Positions 20,605 to 27,539 of a stretch of DNA of 30,792 nt are shown one piece after another. A model generated the notes under the pieces. That model was not told where the DNA came from. It searched no databases and worked only from the letters and a program-made list of their open reading frames with translations. Within the stretch, counting starts at the first letter, position 1. Each line of letters starts with the position of its first letter. The DNA comes from Oscillospiraceae bacterium (GTDB lineage Bacteria > Bacillota_A > Clostridia > Oscillospirales > WRJC01), in contig WQXD01000011.1 of the NCBI GenBank assembly GCA_009785015.1, positions 1 to 30,792 on the forward strand, given 5' to 3'. The translations under genes were made by a program, and so were the position numbers.

Positions 20605-21087
20605 ATGCAAATACGCAAAACGGCGGTTGCCGATATTGATTCGGTAATGCAAATATACGCGGAAGCGCGTGAGTTCATGCGCGAAAACGGAAATCCGACG
20701 CAGTGGAAAGACAAAAATCCGCCGCAAAGCCTGATAGAAGGGGATATACAACAAAAAAAAAGCTATGTATGCGTCGAAAACGACGAAGTCATCGCAGTTT
20801 TCTATTTCGCCGTCGAATGCGAGCCGGTCTATAACTCGATTGCCGGCAACTGGCTCAGCGACGAAATATACGGCGTGATCCACCGGATCGCGAAACGCCG
20901 TCAAGCGCCTAAGGGCGTGGGGCGCTTTTGTATAGAATGGTGCATCAGGCAATGCGGAAATATAAGAATCGACACGCACGAAAACAACGCGCCCATGCGC
21001 AAGCTGCTCGGCAATCTCGGCTTTGTCTATTGCGGGGTTGCGCGCTATCCCGACGGCGGCGAACGCATGGCCTTTCAGAAAATCTAA
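20605..21087 (+). CDS. GNAT-family N-acetyltransferase
   Basis: A 160-residue GNAT protein. The N-terminus is MQIRKTAVADIDSVMQIY. The middle strand is SYVCVENDEVIAVFYFAVE. The acetyl-CoA region is APKGVGRFCIEWCIRQCGNI, then IRIDTHENNAPMRKLLGNLG, FVYCGVARY and the end ERMAFQKI, the usual motif A/B order. The strand RIDTHENNAPMRKLL is typical of small-molecule acetyltransferases; the substrate is unknown. GGGAGGT lies at a good distance from the ATG. Its stop overlaps the stop of the convergent scfB gene by four bases. Confidence 0.88.
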   Translation: MQIRKTAVADIDSVMQIYAEAREFMRENGNPTQWKDKNPPQSLIEGDIQQKKSYVCVENDEVIAVFYFAVECEPVYNSIAGNWLSDEIYGVIHRIAKRRQAPKGVGRFCIEWCIRQCGNIRIDTHENNAPMRKLLGNLGFVYCGVARYPDGGERMAFQKI

Positions 21088-22493
21088 ATGCCGCTCAAAA
21101 CGGCCTTTATCGCTATCGCGCATTCCACGCGCTTTTTTTCCATTTCACAGGCGATTTCATAGGGCTCATATATGCTGCCGCTGAAATTTTCGTTGTTGGC
21201 GGGGCAGCCTCCGCCGCAAAAATATTTTGCCCAGCATTTTTGGCACTTCTCGTTTGATACTATGTTGTTTTCGTAAAACCTGCCCATCAAATCCCGGTTC
21301 AGGGATATATCCGGCGTGTTCACGTTTCCGAGCCTGTATTTTTCGTTTCCGGCAAACTGGTGGCAGGGGTAGATGCCGCCGTTTGGCGTCACGGCTGCAT
21401 ATTCGCTTCCGGAACCGCAGCCTTTCGCGCGTTTTTTCGCGCAGGGGCCGTTTTCCAAGTCTATGTTGAAATGAAAAAAATTGAAAGTTTCCGCCCTTTT
21501 TCGCCCGCGCCTTATCATTTCCTTTGCCAGAATTTCATATTCCCCGAAGACCGCGGGCAAATCCCGCGCATTTATCGCGTAACCGCTGCTTTCTTCTGCC
21601 ACCACCGGTTCTATCGATATGTTTTCAAATCCGAGTTCCCGCATATGCAGCGCGTCCTCCGCGAAATTCAGATTTTTTTTCGTGAAGGTGCCGCGTATGT
21701 AATAATCCCTGTAATTCGGATTTTTTCGTTTTGCAACCAACTTTTGGTACAGGGGAACGATATCCGCATAGCTGCCGCCGCCGTTCGCGTATTTGCGCAT
21801 TTTGTCGTTTGTCTCTTTTGTCCCGTCCAAGGACAAAACCACATTGGAGATATTTTCGTTTATGAAATCTATTTTTTCCGCATCCAGCAGCGTGCCGTTC
21901 GTGGTCAATGTGAAGCGCACGTTTTTGTTGTATTTTTTTTCGAGCGCGCGCGTATTCGAGACGGTGTTTTTTACCGTTTCGAAATTGAGCAGGGGCTCGC
22001 CGCCAAAAAAATCCACTTCCAGGTTTCTGCGGTTTTTAGAATTTTCCATCAAAAAGCGCATGGCGGCCATCGCCGTTTTTTCACTCATCAATTTGTCTTC
22101 GCCGTTTTCGGAACCGAAACTTCCCCCCCCGGCAAAACAATACGCGCACTCCATGTTGCATTCGTGCGCCACATTCAGGCACAGCGCCTTTACCGGCGTT
22201 TCTTTGGAATACTCAAGTGCCAGATCTTCTTCCTGAGACGAAAATATACAGCGGCTCTCATACAGCTCCAAAAGCTCCGAGTATGCTTTTTTCACCTCGG
22301 AGCCCTCGTATTTCGCCAGTGAATACCTCAAATCCACGGGGCATTCCCCCGGTAGCTCCCTTTGCTTGTTTTTTTCGAGCTCCGTTTCGAGATATCCGGC
22401 CATTTGCGACGCGACGTCGCTCATCAGATGAATTGTTCCGCTCTCGACGTCGAGCACGATATTGTATCCGAAAAGCGTATATCTGTGTATCAT
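21084..22493 (-). CDS. scfB: SCIFF peptide maturase, radical SAM thioether-forming enzyme
   Basis: A 469-residue radical SAM enzyme with an N-terminal peptide-recognition region (RYTLFGYNIVLDVESGTIHL). The cluster motif CNMECAYC places Cys112, Cys116 and Cys119 on the catalytic 4Fe-4S cluster. A SPASM-type C-terminus has cysteines in PCAKKRAKGCG, YPCHQF, CQKCWAKYFCGGGCP and EIACEMEK for auxiliary clusters. This matches the SCIFF maturases that form sulfur-to-carbon thioether crosslinks in the six-cysteine peptide. The ATG at 22493 overlaps the precursor stop as ATGA, so the two are translationally coupled. The pair is nearly universal in Clostridia; the biological role of the product (a ranthipeptide) is only partly known. 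Confidence 0.95.
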   Translation of the reverse strand: MIHRYTLFGYNIVLDVESGTIHLMSDVASQMAGYLETELEKNKQRELPGECPVDLRYSLAKYEGSEVKKAYSELLELYESRCIFSSQEEDLALEYSKETPVKALCLNVAHECNMECAYCFAGGGSFGSENGEDKLMSEKTAMAAMRFLMENSKNRRNLEVDFFGGEPLLNFETVKNTVSNTRALEKKYNKNVRFTLTTNGTLLDAEKIDFINENISNVVLSLDGTKETNDKMRKYANGGGSYADIVPLYQKLVAKRKNPNYRDYYIRGTFTKKNLNFAEDALHMRELGFENISIEPVVAEESSGYAINARDLPAVFGEYEILAKEMIRRGRKRAETFNFFHFNIDLENGPCAKKRAKGCGSGSEYAAVTPNGGIYPCHQFAGNEKYRLGNVNTPDISLNRDLMGRFYENNIVSNEKCQKCWAKYFCGGGCPANNENFSGSIYEPYEIACEMEKKRVECAIAIKAVLSGI

Positions 22494-22672
22494 TTTTGAT
22501 TGTTTTCGCAGCTCTGGTTGGCCACCGTGCAGGAAGTCTTGCAGGCGGACTGGCAGGACGCCTGGCATTCGCCGCATCCCGTCGTTTTTTTGTTTTTTGT
22601 CTTGCTTAGTTTGGGGTTGAGTGTTCTTATATGCGCGTTTTCCCTGGTTTTTTCAACTCTTGTCGTTTCCAT
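22490..22672 (-). CDS. scfA: six-cysteine SCIFF ranthipeptide precursor
   Basis: A 60-residue precursor. The leader half is basic (HIRTLNPKLSKTKNKKT) and the core TGCGECQASCQSACKTSC is followed by TVANQSCEN. Its six cysteines at 33, 36, 40, 44, 48 and 55 fit the six-Cys-in-forty-five pattern. The maturase encoded directly downstream would link Cys to alpha or beta carbons of nearby residues. GGAGGAAA precedes the ATG, and a perfect consensus promoter lies about 40 bases upstream, implying strong constitutive expression. The promoter is back-to-back with that of the aspS operon. Confidence 0.95.
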   Translation of the reverse strand: METTRVEKTRENAHIRTLNPKLSKTKNKKTTGCGECQASCQSACKTSCTVANQSCENNQK

Positions 22673-22768: not shown

Positions 22769-22797
22769 TTGACATTCGATTCGAAATGTGGTAGAAT
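22769..22797 (+). promoter_or_regulatory. promoter of the T-box aspS-gatCAB operon
   Basis: TTGACA (22769-22774) and TAGAAT (22792-22797) have a 17-base spacer. Transcription would start near 22804, at the beginning of the T-box leader. Confidence 0.8.
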
Positions 22798-23078: not shown

Positions 23079-24821
23079 ATGCAAAAAAACATGTACAGAA
23101 CCCATAACTGCGGACAATTAGGCGAATCCGACATAGGCAAAACGGTCGGCTTGGCCGGCTGGGTCGATACGATACGCGATCACGGCGGTATAATATTCAT
23201 CGATTTGCGCGATCATTACGGCCTGACGCAAATCGTCGTCTATGACGACGGTTTAATTTCCAAAATCGGCAAAGAATCGGTCATATCAATTATCGGGACA
23301 GTGGTTTTGAGGAATGAGGAAACCGTAAATCCGAAAATAGCGACGGGGTATATAGAAGTCAAGGCCGAAACGCTCACGGTTTTGAGCAGGTCTTTGACAA
23401 ATTTGCCGTTTGAGATACGCGAATCGACGGCGACAAGGGAGGAAGTGAGGCTCAAATACAGATTCTTGGATTTGAGAAACCCGCAGATGCGCCAAAATAT
23501 AGTGACGCGCGCGAAAATAACAAGCCATCTCCGCAGGAAAATGGAAGAATTGGATTTCGTCGAAATACAGACTCCGATTCTGACTTCTTCTTCCCCCGAG
23601 GGCGCGAGGGACTATATCGTGCCCAGCAGAAAACATCACGGCATGTTTTACGCTCTGCCCCAGGCCCCCCAGCAGTTCAAGCAGCTGCTCATGGTTTCGG
23701 GATTTGACCGGTATTTCCAGATAGCGCCGTGTTTCCGGGATGAGGACTCGAGGGTCGACCGTTCCCCCGGCGAATTTTACCAGCTCGATTTTGAAATGGC
23801 GTTTTCCACCCAGGAGGACGTGTTCGCGGTTTTGGAAGATGTGTTTTATGATACATTCACAAAATTTTCGGACAAATATGTCTCCCCGGCTCCCTTTATC
23901 AGAATACCGTATAACGAAAGCATGCAAAGATACGGCTCCGACAAACCCGACCTGCGAAACCCGCTTGTCATAAGCGACCTCACGGACTTTTTTTCGGATG
24001 TGGATTTCAAGCCTTTCAAAAACAGGCCGGTGCGGGGGATCGTGGTCGAATGCGGCAGAATGCCGAACTCGTTTTTTGAAAGCATGCTGAAATTCGCCGG
24101 CGAAATAGGCATGAAAGGCCTTGGCTATATTTCCGTTCTCGAAAACGGGGAGCTGAAAGGGCCGATTGCCAAATTTTTGTCCGCCGAAAAACAGGCCCAA
24201 ATGACAAACATTCTGAAAATGAAAGAATTTGACACGCTGTTTTTCATATCGGACGATTTGAAAACGGTGAACAAGCTCGCGGGGCAGATAAGAATGGAAC
24301 TGGGCAGGCGCATGGGCCTCATCGATGAAAACAAATATGAAATGTGTTTTATCGTGGATTTCCCCATGTATGAGATAAACGAGGAGACAAACAAAATAGA
24401 TTTCGGCCACAACCCGTTTTCAATGCCGCAGGGCGGCCTCGAGGCGCTCATATCAAAAGATCCGCTCGAAATACAGGCGTATCAATATGACTTCGTGTGC
24501 AACGGCGTCGAGCTCACCTCGGGCGCAGTCAGAAACTACAACCCGGAGATATTGGTCAAGGCGTTTGAGCTCGCCGGTTATGACGAAGAGACCGTAAAAA
24601 CCAAATTCGGCGGGATGTACAACGCGTTCCAGTTCGGAGCGCCGCCGCACGCGGGCGGGGCGCCCGGCATTGAGCGGATCGTGATGCTTCTGACCGGCGA
24701 AAAAAATATACGGGAAGTCACGGCGTTCCCCATGACCGGAAACGCCCAGGATTTGATGATGGGCGCTCCCGGCCCGGTCACCGAGGCGCAGCTCAGGGAA
24801 GTGCATATAAAAATCAGATAA
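23079..24821 (+). CDS. aspS: aspartyl-tRNA synthetase, probably non-discriminating
   Basis: A 580-residue bacterial-type class II AspRS. An N-terminal OB-fold anticodon domain (GLAGWVDTIRDHGGIIFIDL) comes first. Then follow the core with motif 2 FQIAPCFRDEDSRVDRSPGE, a GAD insertion, and motif 3 GAPPHAGGAPGIERIVMLL. His35 in RDHGG occupies the position where discriminating AspRS has Leu, and this His is typical of non-discriminating enzymes that also charge tRNA(Asn) with Asp. The second marker site, in RNEETVN, is Glu81, neither the Lys of discriminating nor the Gly of many non-discriminating enzymes. This fits the gatCAB genes downstream, which would convert Asp-tRNA(Asn). ATG 23079 is chosen from homology; the frame extends upstream through the T-box leader by chance. 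Confidence 0.93.
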   Translation: MQKNMYRTHNCGQLGESDIGKTVGLAGWVDTIRDHGGIIFIDLRDHYGLTQIVVYDDGLISKIGKESVISIIGTVVLRNEETVNPKIATGYIEVKAETLTVLSRSLTNLPFEIRESTATREEVRLKYRFLDLRNPQMRQNIVTRAKITSHLRRKMEELDFVEIQTPILTSSSPEGARDYIVPSRKHHGMFYALPQAPQQFKQLLMVSGFDRYFQIAPCFRDEDSRVDRSPGEFYQLDFEMAFSTQEDVFAVLEDVFYDTFTKFSDKYVSPAPFIRIPYNESMQRYGSDKPDLRNPLVISDLTDFFSDVDFKPFKNRPVRGIVVECGRMPNSFFESMLKFAGEIGMKGLGYISVLENGELKGPIAKFLSAEKQAQMTNILKMKEFDTLFFISDDLKTVNKLAGQIRMELGRRMGLIDENKYEMCFIVDFPMYEINEETNKIDFGHNPFSMPQGGLEALISKDPLEIQAYQYDFVCNGVELTSGAVRNYNPEILVKAFELAGYDEETVKTKFGGMYNAFQFGAPPHAGGAPGIERIVMLLTGEKNIREVTAFPMTGNAQDLMMGAPGPVTEAQLREVHIKIR

Positions 24822-24852
24822 TCAAATATTAGCGACAGGAGGGAAAAAATTT

Positions 24853-25128
24853 ATGTATGATTTGGAAAAGCTGGAATCGTTTTCAAAGATAAAACTGAGC
24901 GAAGAAGAAAAAATCAAAGCCGGGCAGTTTTTCGATTTCTGGATTTTGAAATTCCGCGAACTCGAAAATACAAACACGGAAGATGTCGAGCCGCTTTTTG
25001 GAGTATCAACGCTCGAAAACGTGACGCGGGAGGACGCCGCCGAAAAGGAGTTCGGCGCGGATGTAATCCTCGAAAACGCGCCCGACCAATATGACGGATA
25101 TTTCGCCGTGCCGAAAATAATTGAATAG
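24853..25128 (+). CDS. gatC: Asp-tRNA(Asn)/Glu-tRNA(Gln) amidotransferase subunit C
   Basis: A 91-residue GatC of normal length. It has LEKLESFSKIKLSEEEK at the start, the central VEPLFGVSTLENVTREDAAE, and the conserved end ILENAPDQYDGYFAVPKIIE, which wraps between GatA and GatB in known structures. Conservation of this wrapping segment suggests that a GatA-GatB interface still exists even though GatA is reduced. AGGAGGGA precedes the ATG, 31 bases after aspS. The gene ends with TAG, 16 bases before gatA. Confidence 0.93.
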   Translation: MYDLEKLESFSKIKLSEEEKIKAGQFFDFWILKFRELENTNTEDVEPLFGVSTLENVTREDAAEKEFGADVILENAPDQYDGYFAVPKIIE

Positions 25129-25144
25129 GGAAGGGAACAATCGC

Positions 25145-26101
25145 ATGAAAATCGCAGTTGACGAAAACATATTTATAAAAGGCGAAATATGCGCGGCGGG
25201 CTCAAAAATGCTGTATAATTTCAAGGCCCCGTATTCCGCCACTGTCATAAACAAACTGAAAGCCGCCCAAATGACAATTTCCTGCCGGACGAAGACCGGC
25301 GAATTCGGAGGCCGGCCGCCAAAAAAAGAAAGCGCCGCCGACGCGGTCGCCTCGGGTTTGGCCGACGCGGCCTTGGGTATTGACTCCGGGGGCGGCGCGT
25401 ACCGCTTGGCCGCCGGGAGCGGGGTTGTGTATATAAAGCCGACATACGGGACCGTTTCGAGATTCGGATTGGCGGCAAATGTGTCTTCCGTGGACCAGAT
25501 AGGCGTCTACGCCAAAAACTTCGGCGACGGGTTTTATGCGCTGTCCGCCGTTTCGGGCCACGACGCAAACGACCCGCTCACTTACCCGGCCGAAAAATAT
25601 GAGTACGACGCGAAAAAGATCGACGCGAATCAATTGAAAGTTTTTGAAACGGATATCGACGCTTTCAAATACCGCGATTGCCTCGAGCCGGTTTATCTCA
25701 TTGTTTCAGCGGCGGAATTTTACTCCAACACATCAAAATTCGACGGGCTGAAATACGGTTACAGAACCGAAAATTTCAAGGATTTGAACGATATGGTCAT
25801 AAATTCGAGAAGCGAAGCTTTCAGCGCCGAAACAAAATTAAAAACGCTGATGGGGGCATATGTTTTATCGGAGGGGCAATTCGAAAAATATTATTACAAA
25901 GCGGCGCAAATCAGGCGGCTCATAAAAGAAGAACTCGCCGTTTGGTTTGAAAGCTTTGACATTGTCACACTTCCCCTGTCCGACGAATCGGCCGCGCTCG
26001 CCAACCTCACGGGCTGCCCCGCGGTAATTGCCAAAGAAAAGATCATGATAGCAAAAGAATTTGACGAAAACAAACTGTTCGCAATCGGAAGGGAAGGGTA
26101 G
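25145..26101 (+). CDS. gatA: reduced GatA-like subunit lacking the amidase catalytic triad
   Basis: A 318-residue GatA homolog; usual length is about 480-490. About 70 N-terminal residues, a segment before the glycine/serine loop, and C-terminal parts are missing. Aligned by eye to canonical GatA: the catalytic Lys in IKDNI is Asp6 (AVDENI); the GGSSGGS loop with cis-Ser is replaced by RPPKKES (Pro59 at the Ser site); the nucleophile Ser in DTGGS is Gly84 (DSGGG). Scaffold segments remain clear: ENIFIKGEICAAGSKML, VVYIKPTYGTVSRFGLAA, SSVDQIGVY, SRSEAFSAE. The frame is open throughout, has a good ribosome site (AGGGAAGGGA), and sits exactly where gatA belongs. It could be a structural subunit using free ammonia or another amide source, or a decaying gene with a second gatA elsewhere. 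Confidence 0.9.
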   Translation: MKIAVDENIFIKGEICAAGSKMLYNFKAPYSATVINKLKAAQMTISCRTKTGEFGGRPPKKESAADAVASGLADAALGIDSGGGAYRLAAGSGVVYIKPTYGTVSRFGLAANVSSVDQIGVYAKNFGDGFYALSAVSGHDANDPLTYPAEKYEYDAKKIDANQLKVFETDIDAFKYRDCLEPVYLIVSAAEFYSNTSKFDGLKYGYRTENFKDLNDMVINSRSEAFSAETKLKTLMGAYVLSEGQFEKYYYKAAQIRRLIKEELAVWFESFDIVTLPLSDESAALANLTGCPAVIAKEKIMIAKEFDENKLFAIGREG

Positions 26102-26105
26102 AAGT

Positions 26106-27539
26106 ATGCGATATGAAGCTGTAATGGGGATCGAAGTCCATGTAGAGCTTTCCACAGAGTCAAAATTGTTCTGCGCCTGTTCGGCGAAATTCGGAGCGGG
26201 GGCAAACGAAAACGTATGTCCCGCCTGCGCCGGAATGCCCGGGTTTTTGCCCGTGCTGAATAAAAAAGCGGTGGAGCTCGGAATCAAAGCCGGGCTTGTC
26301 ACCGAAAGCGAAATAACAAAAAAAATCACATTCGACAAAAAAAATTATTTTTATCCCGATCTGCCCGCGGGCTTCCAGATAACCCAGTGGTTTTCCCCCA
26401 TATGCAAAAACGGCCGCGTGTCAATAGAGACGAAATCCGGCGCGAAAACAATCAGGCTCAAGCAGATCCATATAGAAGAGGACGCGGGCAAATTGGTCCA
26501 CGCGGCAAATTCAAGCTCGTCGATGGTCGACTACAACAGGGCAGGGGTGCCCCTCATCGAAATAGTCAGCCAAGCGGATTTCGCGAGCGCCGAAGAAGTG
26601 GTCGCCTATCTCAAAAAACTCCAGTCGCTTTTGGTGTACGCCGAAGTATCGGACTGCAAAATGCATGAAGGCTCGATGCGGGCGGATGTGAACATTTCAG
26701 TCCGCGAAGAAGGCGAAAAAAAGCTCGGCGTAAAAACGGAACTGAAAAATATGAACTCGTTTAAGGCGATTGTAAACGCCGTCGAGTATGAAACCAAACG
26801 GCAGACCGAGGCGCTCGAAGCGGGCGAAAAATTGATTCAGGGGACAAGGCGCTGGGACGAGGAAAAAAACATGAGTTTCCCGATGCGAACCAAGGAAGAT
26901 GCCACGGATTACCGGTATTTCCCGGATCCCGACATCATGCCGCTCGCAATAGGGGAAAAATGGATTGAAGAAATAAGAAACTCGCTTCCGGAGCTCGCCC
27001 ATCAAAAATTCAGGCGTTTTGCAGACCAATATGCCTTGAGCGAATATGACGCGAAGATTCTGACCGAAAACAAACGCCTGTCCGAGATTTTCGAGGAAAC
27101 AACCGCTCTTTGCCAAAATCCGAAGGAAACCGCGAACTGGCTGATTGTGGAGCTTTTGAGCCTGATCAAAAACGACGGCAGGGAAATTGAAGACGTGCGC
27201 ATCGACTGCCGGAAAATCGCGGAGCTCATAGGGCTCGTCCTCGAAAATGCGATAAACCGTCCCTCGGCAAAGGAAATATTCGCGAAGATATACCGCGAAA
27301 ACGTAGATCCGAAACAGTACGTCAAAGAACACGGCCTCGGCATGATCTCCGACAGCGGCATGCTGTACAATGCGTGCTTAGATGCGATAGCTGAGGATCC
27401 GGACGGCGTAAAAAAATACAAAAACGGCAACGCGAAGGTATTCGCGGCGTTTGTTGGCACGGTGATGCGCAAAATGAAGGGCAAGGCGAACACCGCGCTC
27501 ATAAACGAAATTTTAAAGAAGATGCTCGAGGAAATGTAA
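26106..27539 (+). CDS. gatB: Asp-tRNA(Asn)/Glu-tRNA(Gln) amidotransferase subunit B
   Basis: A 477-residue full-length GatB. It starts MRYEAVMGIEVHVELSTESK. The zinc knuckle is Cys23, Cys25, Cys38 and Cys41. Next come the kinase-like core with YFYPDLPAGFQITQW, QIHIEEDAGKLVH and DYNRAGVPLIEIVS, then HEGSMRADVNISVR, and the C-terminal helical/YqeY tail (GKANTALINEILKKML) that binds tRNA. The phosphorylation and transamidation sites look intact, so GatB can probably activate Asp- or Glu-tRNA. It starts 4 bases after gatA at ATG 26106; an in-frame upstream start at 26061 would lie inside gatA and is rejected. Confidence 0.95.
   Translation: MRYEAVMGIEVHVELSTESKLFCACSAKFGAGANENVCPACAGMPGFLPVLNKKAVELGIKAGLVTESEITKKITFDKKNYFYPDLPAGFQITQWFSPICKNGRVSIETKSGAKTIRLKQIHIEEDAGKLVHAANSSSSMVDYNRAGVPLIEIVSQADFASAEEVVAYLKKLQSLLVYAEVSDCKMHEGSMRADVNISVREEGEKKLGVKTELKNMNSFKAIVNAVEYETKRQTEALEAGEKLIQGTRRWDEEKNMSFPMRTKEDATDYRYFPDPDIMPLAIGEKWIEEIRNSLPELAHQKFRRFADQYALSEYDAKILTENKRLSEIFEETTALCQNPKETANWLIVELLSLIKNDGREIEDVRIDCRKIAELIGLVLENAINRPSAKEIFAKIYRENVDPKQYVKEHGLGMISDSGMLYNACLDAIAEDPDGVKKYKNGNAKVFAAFVGTVMRKMKGKANTALINEILKKMLEEM

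Follow-up and report, generated by a model that had tools for sequence, protein, structure and literature searches.

The flagged gene in the window, by which the whole 30,792-nucleotide stretch is meant, is a gatA whose product has lost the residues with which this subunit hydrolyses glutamine, in an operon that looks otherwise complete, raising the question of what a GatCAB amidotransferase with such a subunit could do. The reading argued here, which is considered probable, is that the operon encodes an Asp-tRNA(Asn) amidotransferase that would be fed by free ammonia and in which GatA would be kept as a scaffold.

The aspS, gatC, gatA and gatB genes are closely packed on the same strand, with purine-rich ribosome sites preceding gatC, gatA and gatB (Table 1). 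In a scan with the NCBIfam models the encoded AspRS, GatC and GatB all exceed their curated cutoffs, while GatA remains under its cutoff (TIGR00132, 201.6 bits against 481.1); its location between gatC and gatB is that of a GatA. The original prediction of an otherwise normal aspS-gatCAB operon, with 318 open codons in gatA and good ribosome sites, is borne out by these results.

Table 1. Location of the features discussed, in the window and in loci of related genomes
Feature	Sequence	Position	Strand	Details
Radical SAM/SPASM protein	Window	21084-22577	-	Adjoins the small peptide
Small Cys-rich peptide	Window	22490-22672	-	
aspS, bacterial-type AspRS, His31	Window	23079..24821	+	NCBIfam PRK00476, 764.8 bits (cutoff 443); start at 23079 or 23091, mechanical ORF opens at 22788
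Ribosome-binding-like AGGAGGG, ahead of gatC	Window	24837..24843	+	Read in the sequence
gatC, 91 aa	Window	24853..25128	+	TIGR00135, 65 bits (cutoff 47.1)
Ribosome-binding-like AGGGAAGGG, ahead of gatA	Window	25127..25135	+	Read in the sequence
Degenerate gatA, 318 aa	Window	25145..26101	+	ATG ORF of 318 codons; Lys79 to Asp6, Ser178 to Gly84, cis-Ser loop deleted
Ribosome-binding-like GGAAGGGAAGGG, ahead of gatB	Window	26087..26098	+	Within the 3' end of gatA; read in the sequence
gatB, complete, 477 aa	Window	26106..27539	+	ATG at 26106; GatB family, 623.9 bits (cutoff 338)
AspRS-GatC fused frame	L005	7824-9947		Example; 16 more loci besides the three given
AspRS-GatC fused frame	L007	7833-9953		Example
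AspRS-GatC fused frame	L008	7843-9948		Example
tRNA-Asn(gtt)	L019	5-80		Beside a degenerate-GatA operon
Degenerate gatA	L032	5030-6169		
Degenerate gatA	L052	2652-3851		

Canonical GatA proteins, such as those of S. aureus and A. aeolicus, comprise about 485 amino acids and contain a Lys-cis-Ser-Ser triad together with glutamine-binding residues, all of which are missing from the window GatA. When it is aligned to canonical GatA, Lys79 is replaced by Asp6 and Ser178 by Gly84, and the loop bearing cis-Ser154 (reference residues 133-153) is deleted, as are reference segments 2-67, 264-293, 408-426, 442-451 and 473-484 and residue 253. The predicted disappearance of the GGSSGGS loop is evident in this alignment, and the predicted replacement of the triad holds for Asp6 and Gly84; the third proposed replacement, Pro59, is an accident of alignment in the deleted loop, where Lys60 was aligned instead, and is not a true homologue of Ser154 since the loop itself is gone. 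The amidase-signature fold is found in the degenerate GatA, and the GatA fold is confident.

A protein search with the window GatA yielded 1537 matches at E <= 1e-3. The best 45 relatives among the 120 matches listed (P0002-P0046) are 266-401 amino acids long, share 47-80% identity with the query and mostly each occur on a separate contig. A search of contigs with an alignment as query gave matches, of which the best 80 loci were kept, and one with a single protein gave none. The 236 aligned GatA rows, which are rows rather than species as some proteins were reached twice (e.g. L115 and P0014), split cleanly into 167 degenerate and 67 canonical Lys-Ser-Ser rows once two of the 236, the fragments L131 and L138, are left out. 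No degenerate row out of the 167 retains Lys79, and its place is taken by Asp in 127, by Glu in 30, by other residues in seven and by gaps in three, so that 157 of the 164 rows with a residue at this position have an acid. Asp codons are two changes away from Lys codons, and the uniformity at position 79 would therefore speak for selection of an acid. Two reference residues that we take to bind glutamine, Arg358 and Asp424 (in S. aureus, Arg358 and Asp425), are each kept in about 1% of the degenerate rows. Among the matches listed, the lengths of the degenerate GatAs decrease from 452 amino acids (P0047, triad D-V-E) to 256, as if the triad had been lost first and the trimming had come later. 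Adjoining gatC and gatB genes are present in 57 and 58 of 60 degenerate loci, respectively. Where record titles name a source, it is usually the gut of a termite or a ruminant, and in some cases another source. Judged from these sequences, the degenerate GatAs are a family in mostly gut Clostridia. One degenerate gatA operon (L052) occurs on a contig labelled Methanosarcinaceae archaeon, which is probably a misbinned Clostridia contig, and one of the genomes (G022) encodes two long amidase-domain proteins besides (frames of 979 and 962 amino acids).

The dN/dS ratio of gatA (NG86) is 0.06-0.18 in 15 of 19 pairs of relatives and undefined in the other four. It is 1.0 to 4.6 times that of gatB across the 13 pairs that gave a value for both genes, indicating that GatA evolves faster. 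Two of the three pairs with the window gatA gave no dS and the third was saturated (2.6), so that the argument for selection on the window's own gene is drawn from its relatives. The original prediction had attributed the gene to selection for a non-catalytic subunit and had proposed looking for purifying selection and conserved loss of the triad among homologues. Both are found among the relatives, in the low dN/dS and in the complete absence of Lys79 from the degenerate rows, and together with a single branch in the GatB tree, the conserved new residues and the confident fold they support selection for such a subunit.

The window GatB contains Glu10, His12, Glu125, Glu152, Asn196 and Ser198, as well as Cys23, Cys25, Cys38 and Cys41, which presumably have a role in binding zinc. 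The first six, as kinase/transamidase residues, are kept in 98-100% of the 55 GatBs of degenerate operons. Moreover, 102 of 138 positions that are invariant in canonical GatBs, those of the active site included, are kept in at least 80% of the 55 degenerate operons, a count from which L067, L129, L131, L138, L142 and sequences under 441 amino acids were left out. The ATP and magnesium residues are those named for the yeast enzyme in the accessible part of its description (PMC4027206), to which the window residues were matched by motif and spacing rather than by alignment. In a GatB tree of 81 sequences, from which near-copies and short sequences were left out and whose root was not inferred, 48 of the 49 GatBs that accompany a degenerate GatA fall on one side of a single starred branch; support values are SH-aLRT only, as a quick method was used. 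The exception, L142, has a long branch and is placed beside L067, whose branch is long as well. This locus (genome G408) encodes a GatA of 475 amino acids with the triad N, gap, A, has no aspS and lies outside the degenerate GatB branch; it is possibly a second, recent loss of the triad.

Of 60 degenerate operons 51 have a bacterial aspS gene immediately upstream, as opposed to two of 60 canonical ones; the other nine degenerate operons comprise cases where the contig or stretch ends, cases of overlap and cases where aspS is truly absent, counted together. In one locus with a degenerate gatA (L032) a bacterial aspS lies nearby on the opposite strand. In 19 degenerate operons, in a ruminant-gut branch, aspS is fused to gatC, a type of fusion for which NCBIfam has a family (PRK12820). 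This pairing recalls the Asn-transamidosomes of T. thermophilus (3kfu) and P. aeruginosa (4wj3), in which AspRS is joined with GatCAB, the link here being made by operon or by AspRS-GatC fusion; the glutaminase subunits of those two complexes are presumably active, unlike the GatA considered here. Position 31 of the operon AspRS is His in all 47 degenerate operons aligned (motif RDHGG; four of the 51, with an AspRS of 550 amino acids or less, were left out) and in both canonical aspS-gat operons, while the stand-alone AspRS proteins of such genomes have Leu in 28 of 33 cases, Lys in three, Val in one and His in one (G140). As His31 and Leu31 are taken here to separate non-discriminating from discriminating bacterial AspRS, a distinction for which the papers searched gave no statement, the operon AspRS is a putative non-discriminating enzyme that would charge tRNA(Asn) with Asp. 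In the closest relative with long contigs (G024) the other AspRS is of the archaeal type (NCBIfam PRK05159, 430.5 bits). Dual routes to Asn, and a non-discriminating AspRS with GatCAB as a source of asparagine, are already known, as noted in the excerpted text of PMC4206432.

From the AspRS pairing the complex very probably serves Asn-tRNA(Asn). Counting against this, the one tRNA(Asn) found in the loci (L019) has G1-C72, at odds with the rule that U1-A72 marks the substrates of GatCAB, given in the part of PMC9976931 that was available. The tRNA(Gln) of G024 has U1-A72, and a tRNA(Asn) was not found in the roughly 1.59 Mb of this genome that was read.

Whether the complex is needed was assessed in 50 genomes of relatives, most of them MAGs of unstated completeness, that were examined for gatB, glnS and asnS. 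They were hand-picked, partly for similarity to the window GatA (21 of 22 genomes chosen from those behind the best 80 loci, and 29 of 394), and the proportions below are thus not frequencies in nature. The asnS scan covered the same 21 and 29 genomes, with G016 also in the first set, and G207, G289, G323 and G408, whose GatA is unusual in length or triad, were left out of the synthetase scans. For the 29 the GatA status was taken from a scan of the 394 genomes, and in G078, G111, G165, G174, G198 and G227 a second match was taken to be the same gatA as each has one gatB. Degenerate GatA alone is encoded in 32 genomes, both kinds in nine and the canonical triad alone in nine; in two of the nine genomes with both kinds (G033 and G231) the second, canonical-like copy consists of a fragment located where a contig ends. 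The search for a second gatA and for asnS and glnS, which the original prediction had proposed, thus returned no canonical GatA in 32 of the 50 genomes, and a canonical gatA accompanied by relaxed selection was encountered in none of these.

Each of the 32 genomes with degenerate GatA only has one GatB over the cutoff. AsnRS is missing over the cutoff in 19 of them, GlnRS in five and both in three, so that 21 lack one or both. GlnRS without AsnRS is found in 16, where the single GatCAB is the only visible route to Asn-tRNA(Asn), as AsnRS was not found there. The gap in AsnRS recurs over nine genomes of one order (G047, G078, G111, G141, G165, G174, G198, G227 and G382). These gaps suggest that the complex probably works. 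AsnRS is present in the other 13 genomes and GlnRS in 27, and the complex is therefore not always the only route. In G126 and G167 AsnRS but not GlnRS scores over the cutoff, and the complex there would have to make Gln-tRNA(Gln). One genome, G011, looks mixed, with two AsnRS over the cutoff and intact CarA and PyrG, and was kept in the counts.

In the proposed mechanism AspRS would charge tRNA(Asn) with Asp, and GatB would phosphorylate the Asp side chain of the resulting Asp-tRNA(Asn) and then amidate it to Asn-tRNA(Asn). GatA, able neither to bind nor to hydrolyse glutamine, would act as a structural subunit holding GatC and GatB in an assembled complex. Ammonia from solution would reach the kinase/transamidase site of GatB by way of what is left of the glutaminase site, now open, or by another path; an entrance may have been left open where the cis-Ser loop was, and the new acid at position 79 may attract ammonium. 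Ammonia is abundant in gut fluid, and many gut anaerobes take it as their nitrogen source.

Parts of this scheme have precedents. Yeast GatFAB can amidate with NH4Cl, and truncation of GatF, which removed a part next to the amidase site, weakened the glutaminase and raised the activity with NH4Cl, according to the portion of PMC4027206 at hand; that enzyme is an engineered mutant with GatA itself intact, and differs in this from the degenerate GatA. The mitochondrial, hepatic carbamoyl phosphate synthetase CPS1 of humans still carries a glutaminase domain that is dead and uses free ammonia, which probably enters by another path, as described in the available text of PMC4655335. Unlike the GatA system, CPS1 has a glutaminase of an unrelated fold (class I) and makes another product. 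The ammonia-dependent asparagine synthetase AsnA also makes the Asn amide from free ammonia, but acts on the free rather than the tRNA-bound amino acid and is unrelated to GatA.

Glutaminase sites have also been lost in other amidotransferases of these genomes. CarA was read in 29 of the 46 genomes searched, and its catalytic Cys is lost in 12 of 21 genomes with degenerate GatA, three of which have both kinds of GatA, versus none of eight with canonical GatA (Fisher p 0.009, uncorrected for kinship); it is kept in the other nine of the 21. In the CarA tree, of 35 rows, the Cys label changes at least nine times, five of these changes being required by starred branches, and all the dead CarAs in it come from degenerate-GatA genomes. 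The catalytic His is also lost in several of the dead CarAs. A second CarA-like paralogue without the catalytic Cys occurs in G100, G167, G126 and G025, forming one clade far from the ordinary CarA, and a similar one in G211 lies outside the CarA tree (paralogue loci L208, L209, L210, L287 and L286).

CTP synthase (PyrG, PF06418) was not found in 28 of 41 genomes searched, which include most of those with degenerate GatA and among them the closest relatives G001 and G024, and is present in all seven canonical ones. The catalytic Cys of PyrG is lost in G190, G009 and G004, and is present in G011, G025 and G211 and in six of the seven canonical genomes, the remaining one having a short frame without the motif. 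The Cys of AsnB is absent in G001, G024 (two copies), G140, G010 and G003, so that all three copies read in the two closest relatives lack it, and it is kept in 11 of the 15 degenerate-only genomes read. One AsnB of a canonical-GatA genome (G348) is also without Cys. Further AsnBs over the cutoff were left unread for Cys in G174, G391 (two), G194, G193, G332, G356 and G011, as were two of the three in G348 and one of the two in G343. PurF-like proteins, named by their look, keep the Cys in G001, G024, G140, G190 and others, and in one locus (L300, genome G007) Gly replaces the N-terminal Cys of such a protein (MGGFFG). The trend towards loss is broad but uneven, and the nearest kin of the window show it in GatA and AsnB alone. 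As the CarA and PurF-like proteins of G001 and G024 keep the Cys, glutamine still seems to be used there, and a global switch to ammonia in these closest relatives is accordingly less clear-cut. A match to the glutamine synthetase family (PF00120) is present in 43 of 46 genomes and missing from G126, G167 and G009, which have degenerate GatA and no GlnRS over the cutoff.

A broader and more tentative proposal, which may well reach too far, is that a lineage of mostly gut Clostridia now draws on free ammonia instead of glutamine for much of its amide chemistry. The dead glutaminases, which belong to three unrelated folds (the amidase type in GatA, class I in CarA and PyrG, and class II in AsnB and a PurF-like protein), would then be kept as scaffolds of ammonia-fed enzymes, with the acid at position 79 of GatA helping ammonium in and Gln-tRNA(Gln) made in the same way in G126 and G167.

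Several other explanations can be set against the ammonia-fed amidotransferase. A separate glutaminase, or another protein acting in trans, might feed ammonia to GatB while GatA only scaffolds, as would suit a GatA without its triad in cells where the glutamine synthetase matches imply that glutamine exists. However, no glutaminase-like frame is seen beside the operon among the window ORFs, read by eye and without a family scan, and G126, G167 and G009 combine a degenerate GatA with no glutamine synthetase match. Many of the genomes with degenerate GatA have, moreover, lost the glutaminase of further amidotransferases, which one partner protein would not explain; these losses favour free ammonia over a separate glutaminase and make this alternative unlikely. 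It is even more doubtful that gatA is a decaying relic of a complex made dispensable by AsnRS, GlnRS and AsnB. The genomes with AsnRS and those with GlnRS fit such a course, as does the fall in GatA length among the matches listed, but simple decay is disfavoured by the dN/dS of the relatives and the single branch of the GatB tree, and further by the conserved new residues and the confident fold, the intact GatB and AspRS and the 19 genomes without AsnRS over the cutoff.

The presence of AsnRS in 13 genomes, where there would be no translational need for the complex, could also be accommodated if it performed some other tRNA-dependent task, such as the removal or sensing of Asp-tRNA(Asn). This is very improbable, as GatB keeps its kinase/transamidase residues and, without amidation by the complex, Asn-tRNA(Asn) would have no visible source in 19 of the 32 genomes. 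That the window lies in a contig of about 32 kb could speak for an assembly artefact or chimera, but short relatives occur on many separate contigs and the copy in G024 lies in a contig of 775 kb; with so many independent copies this explanation is ruled out for practical purposes. An ammonia-fed Asp-tRNA(Asn) amidotransferase with a scaffolding GatA is thus retained as the probable reading of the operon.

GatCAB itself is well known, but to our knowledge a glutaminase-dead variant spread over a clade and accompanied by parallel losses in other enzymes is new. Among the open-licence papers listed, paywalled work aside, none describes a natural GatCAB with a dead glutaminase in its title or the opening lines of its abstract, in keeping with the original statement, whose author knew of none of this kind. 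If the reading is correct, no natural GatCAB lacking a functional glutaminase would have been described before, within the literature searched, and this one would have been maintained throughout a large clade; glutaminases that died repeatedly in several enzymes would record a single environmental condition, the plentiful ammonia of guts. Roles of GatA beyond glutamine hydrolysis, the uptake of ammonia by GatB and cell life without glutamine as nitrogen donor would become open to test. To score GatABC among the glutamine-dependent routes of gut metagenomes could then mislead; genome reconstructions do count it as a route to asparagine and glutamine, as in the accessible text of PMC9026213.

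Upstream of the operon, on the opposite strand, the window also encodes a small Cys-rich peptide, presumably of the SCIFF type, and an adjoining radical SAM/SPASM protein, which we take to resemble its maturase (Table 1).
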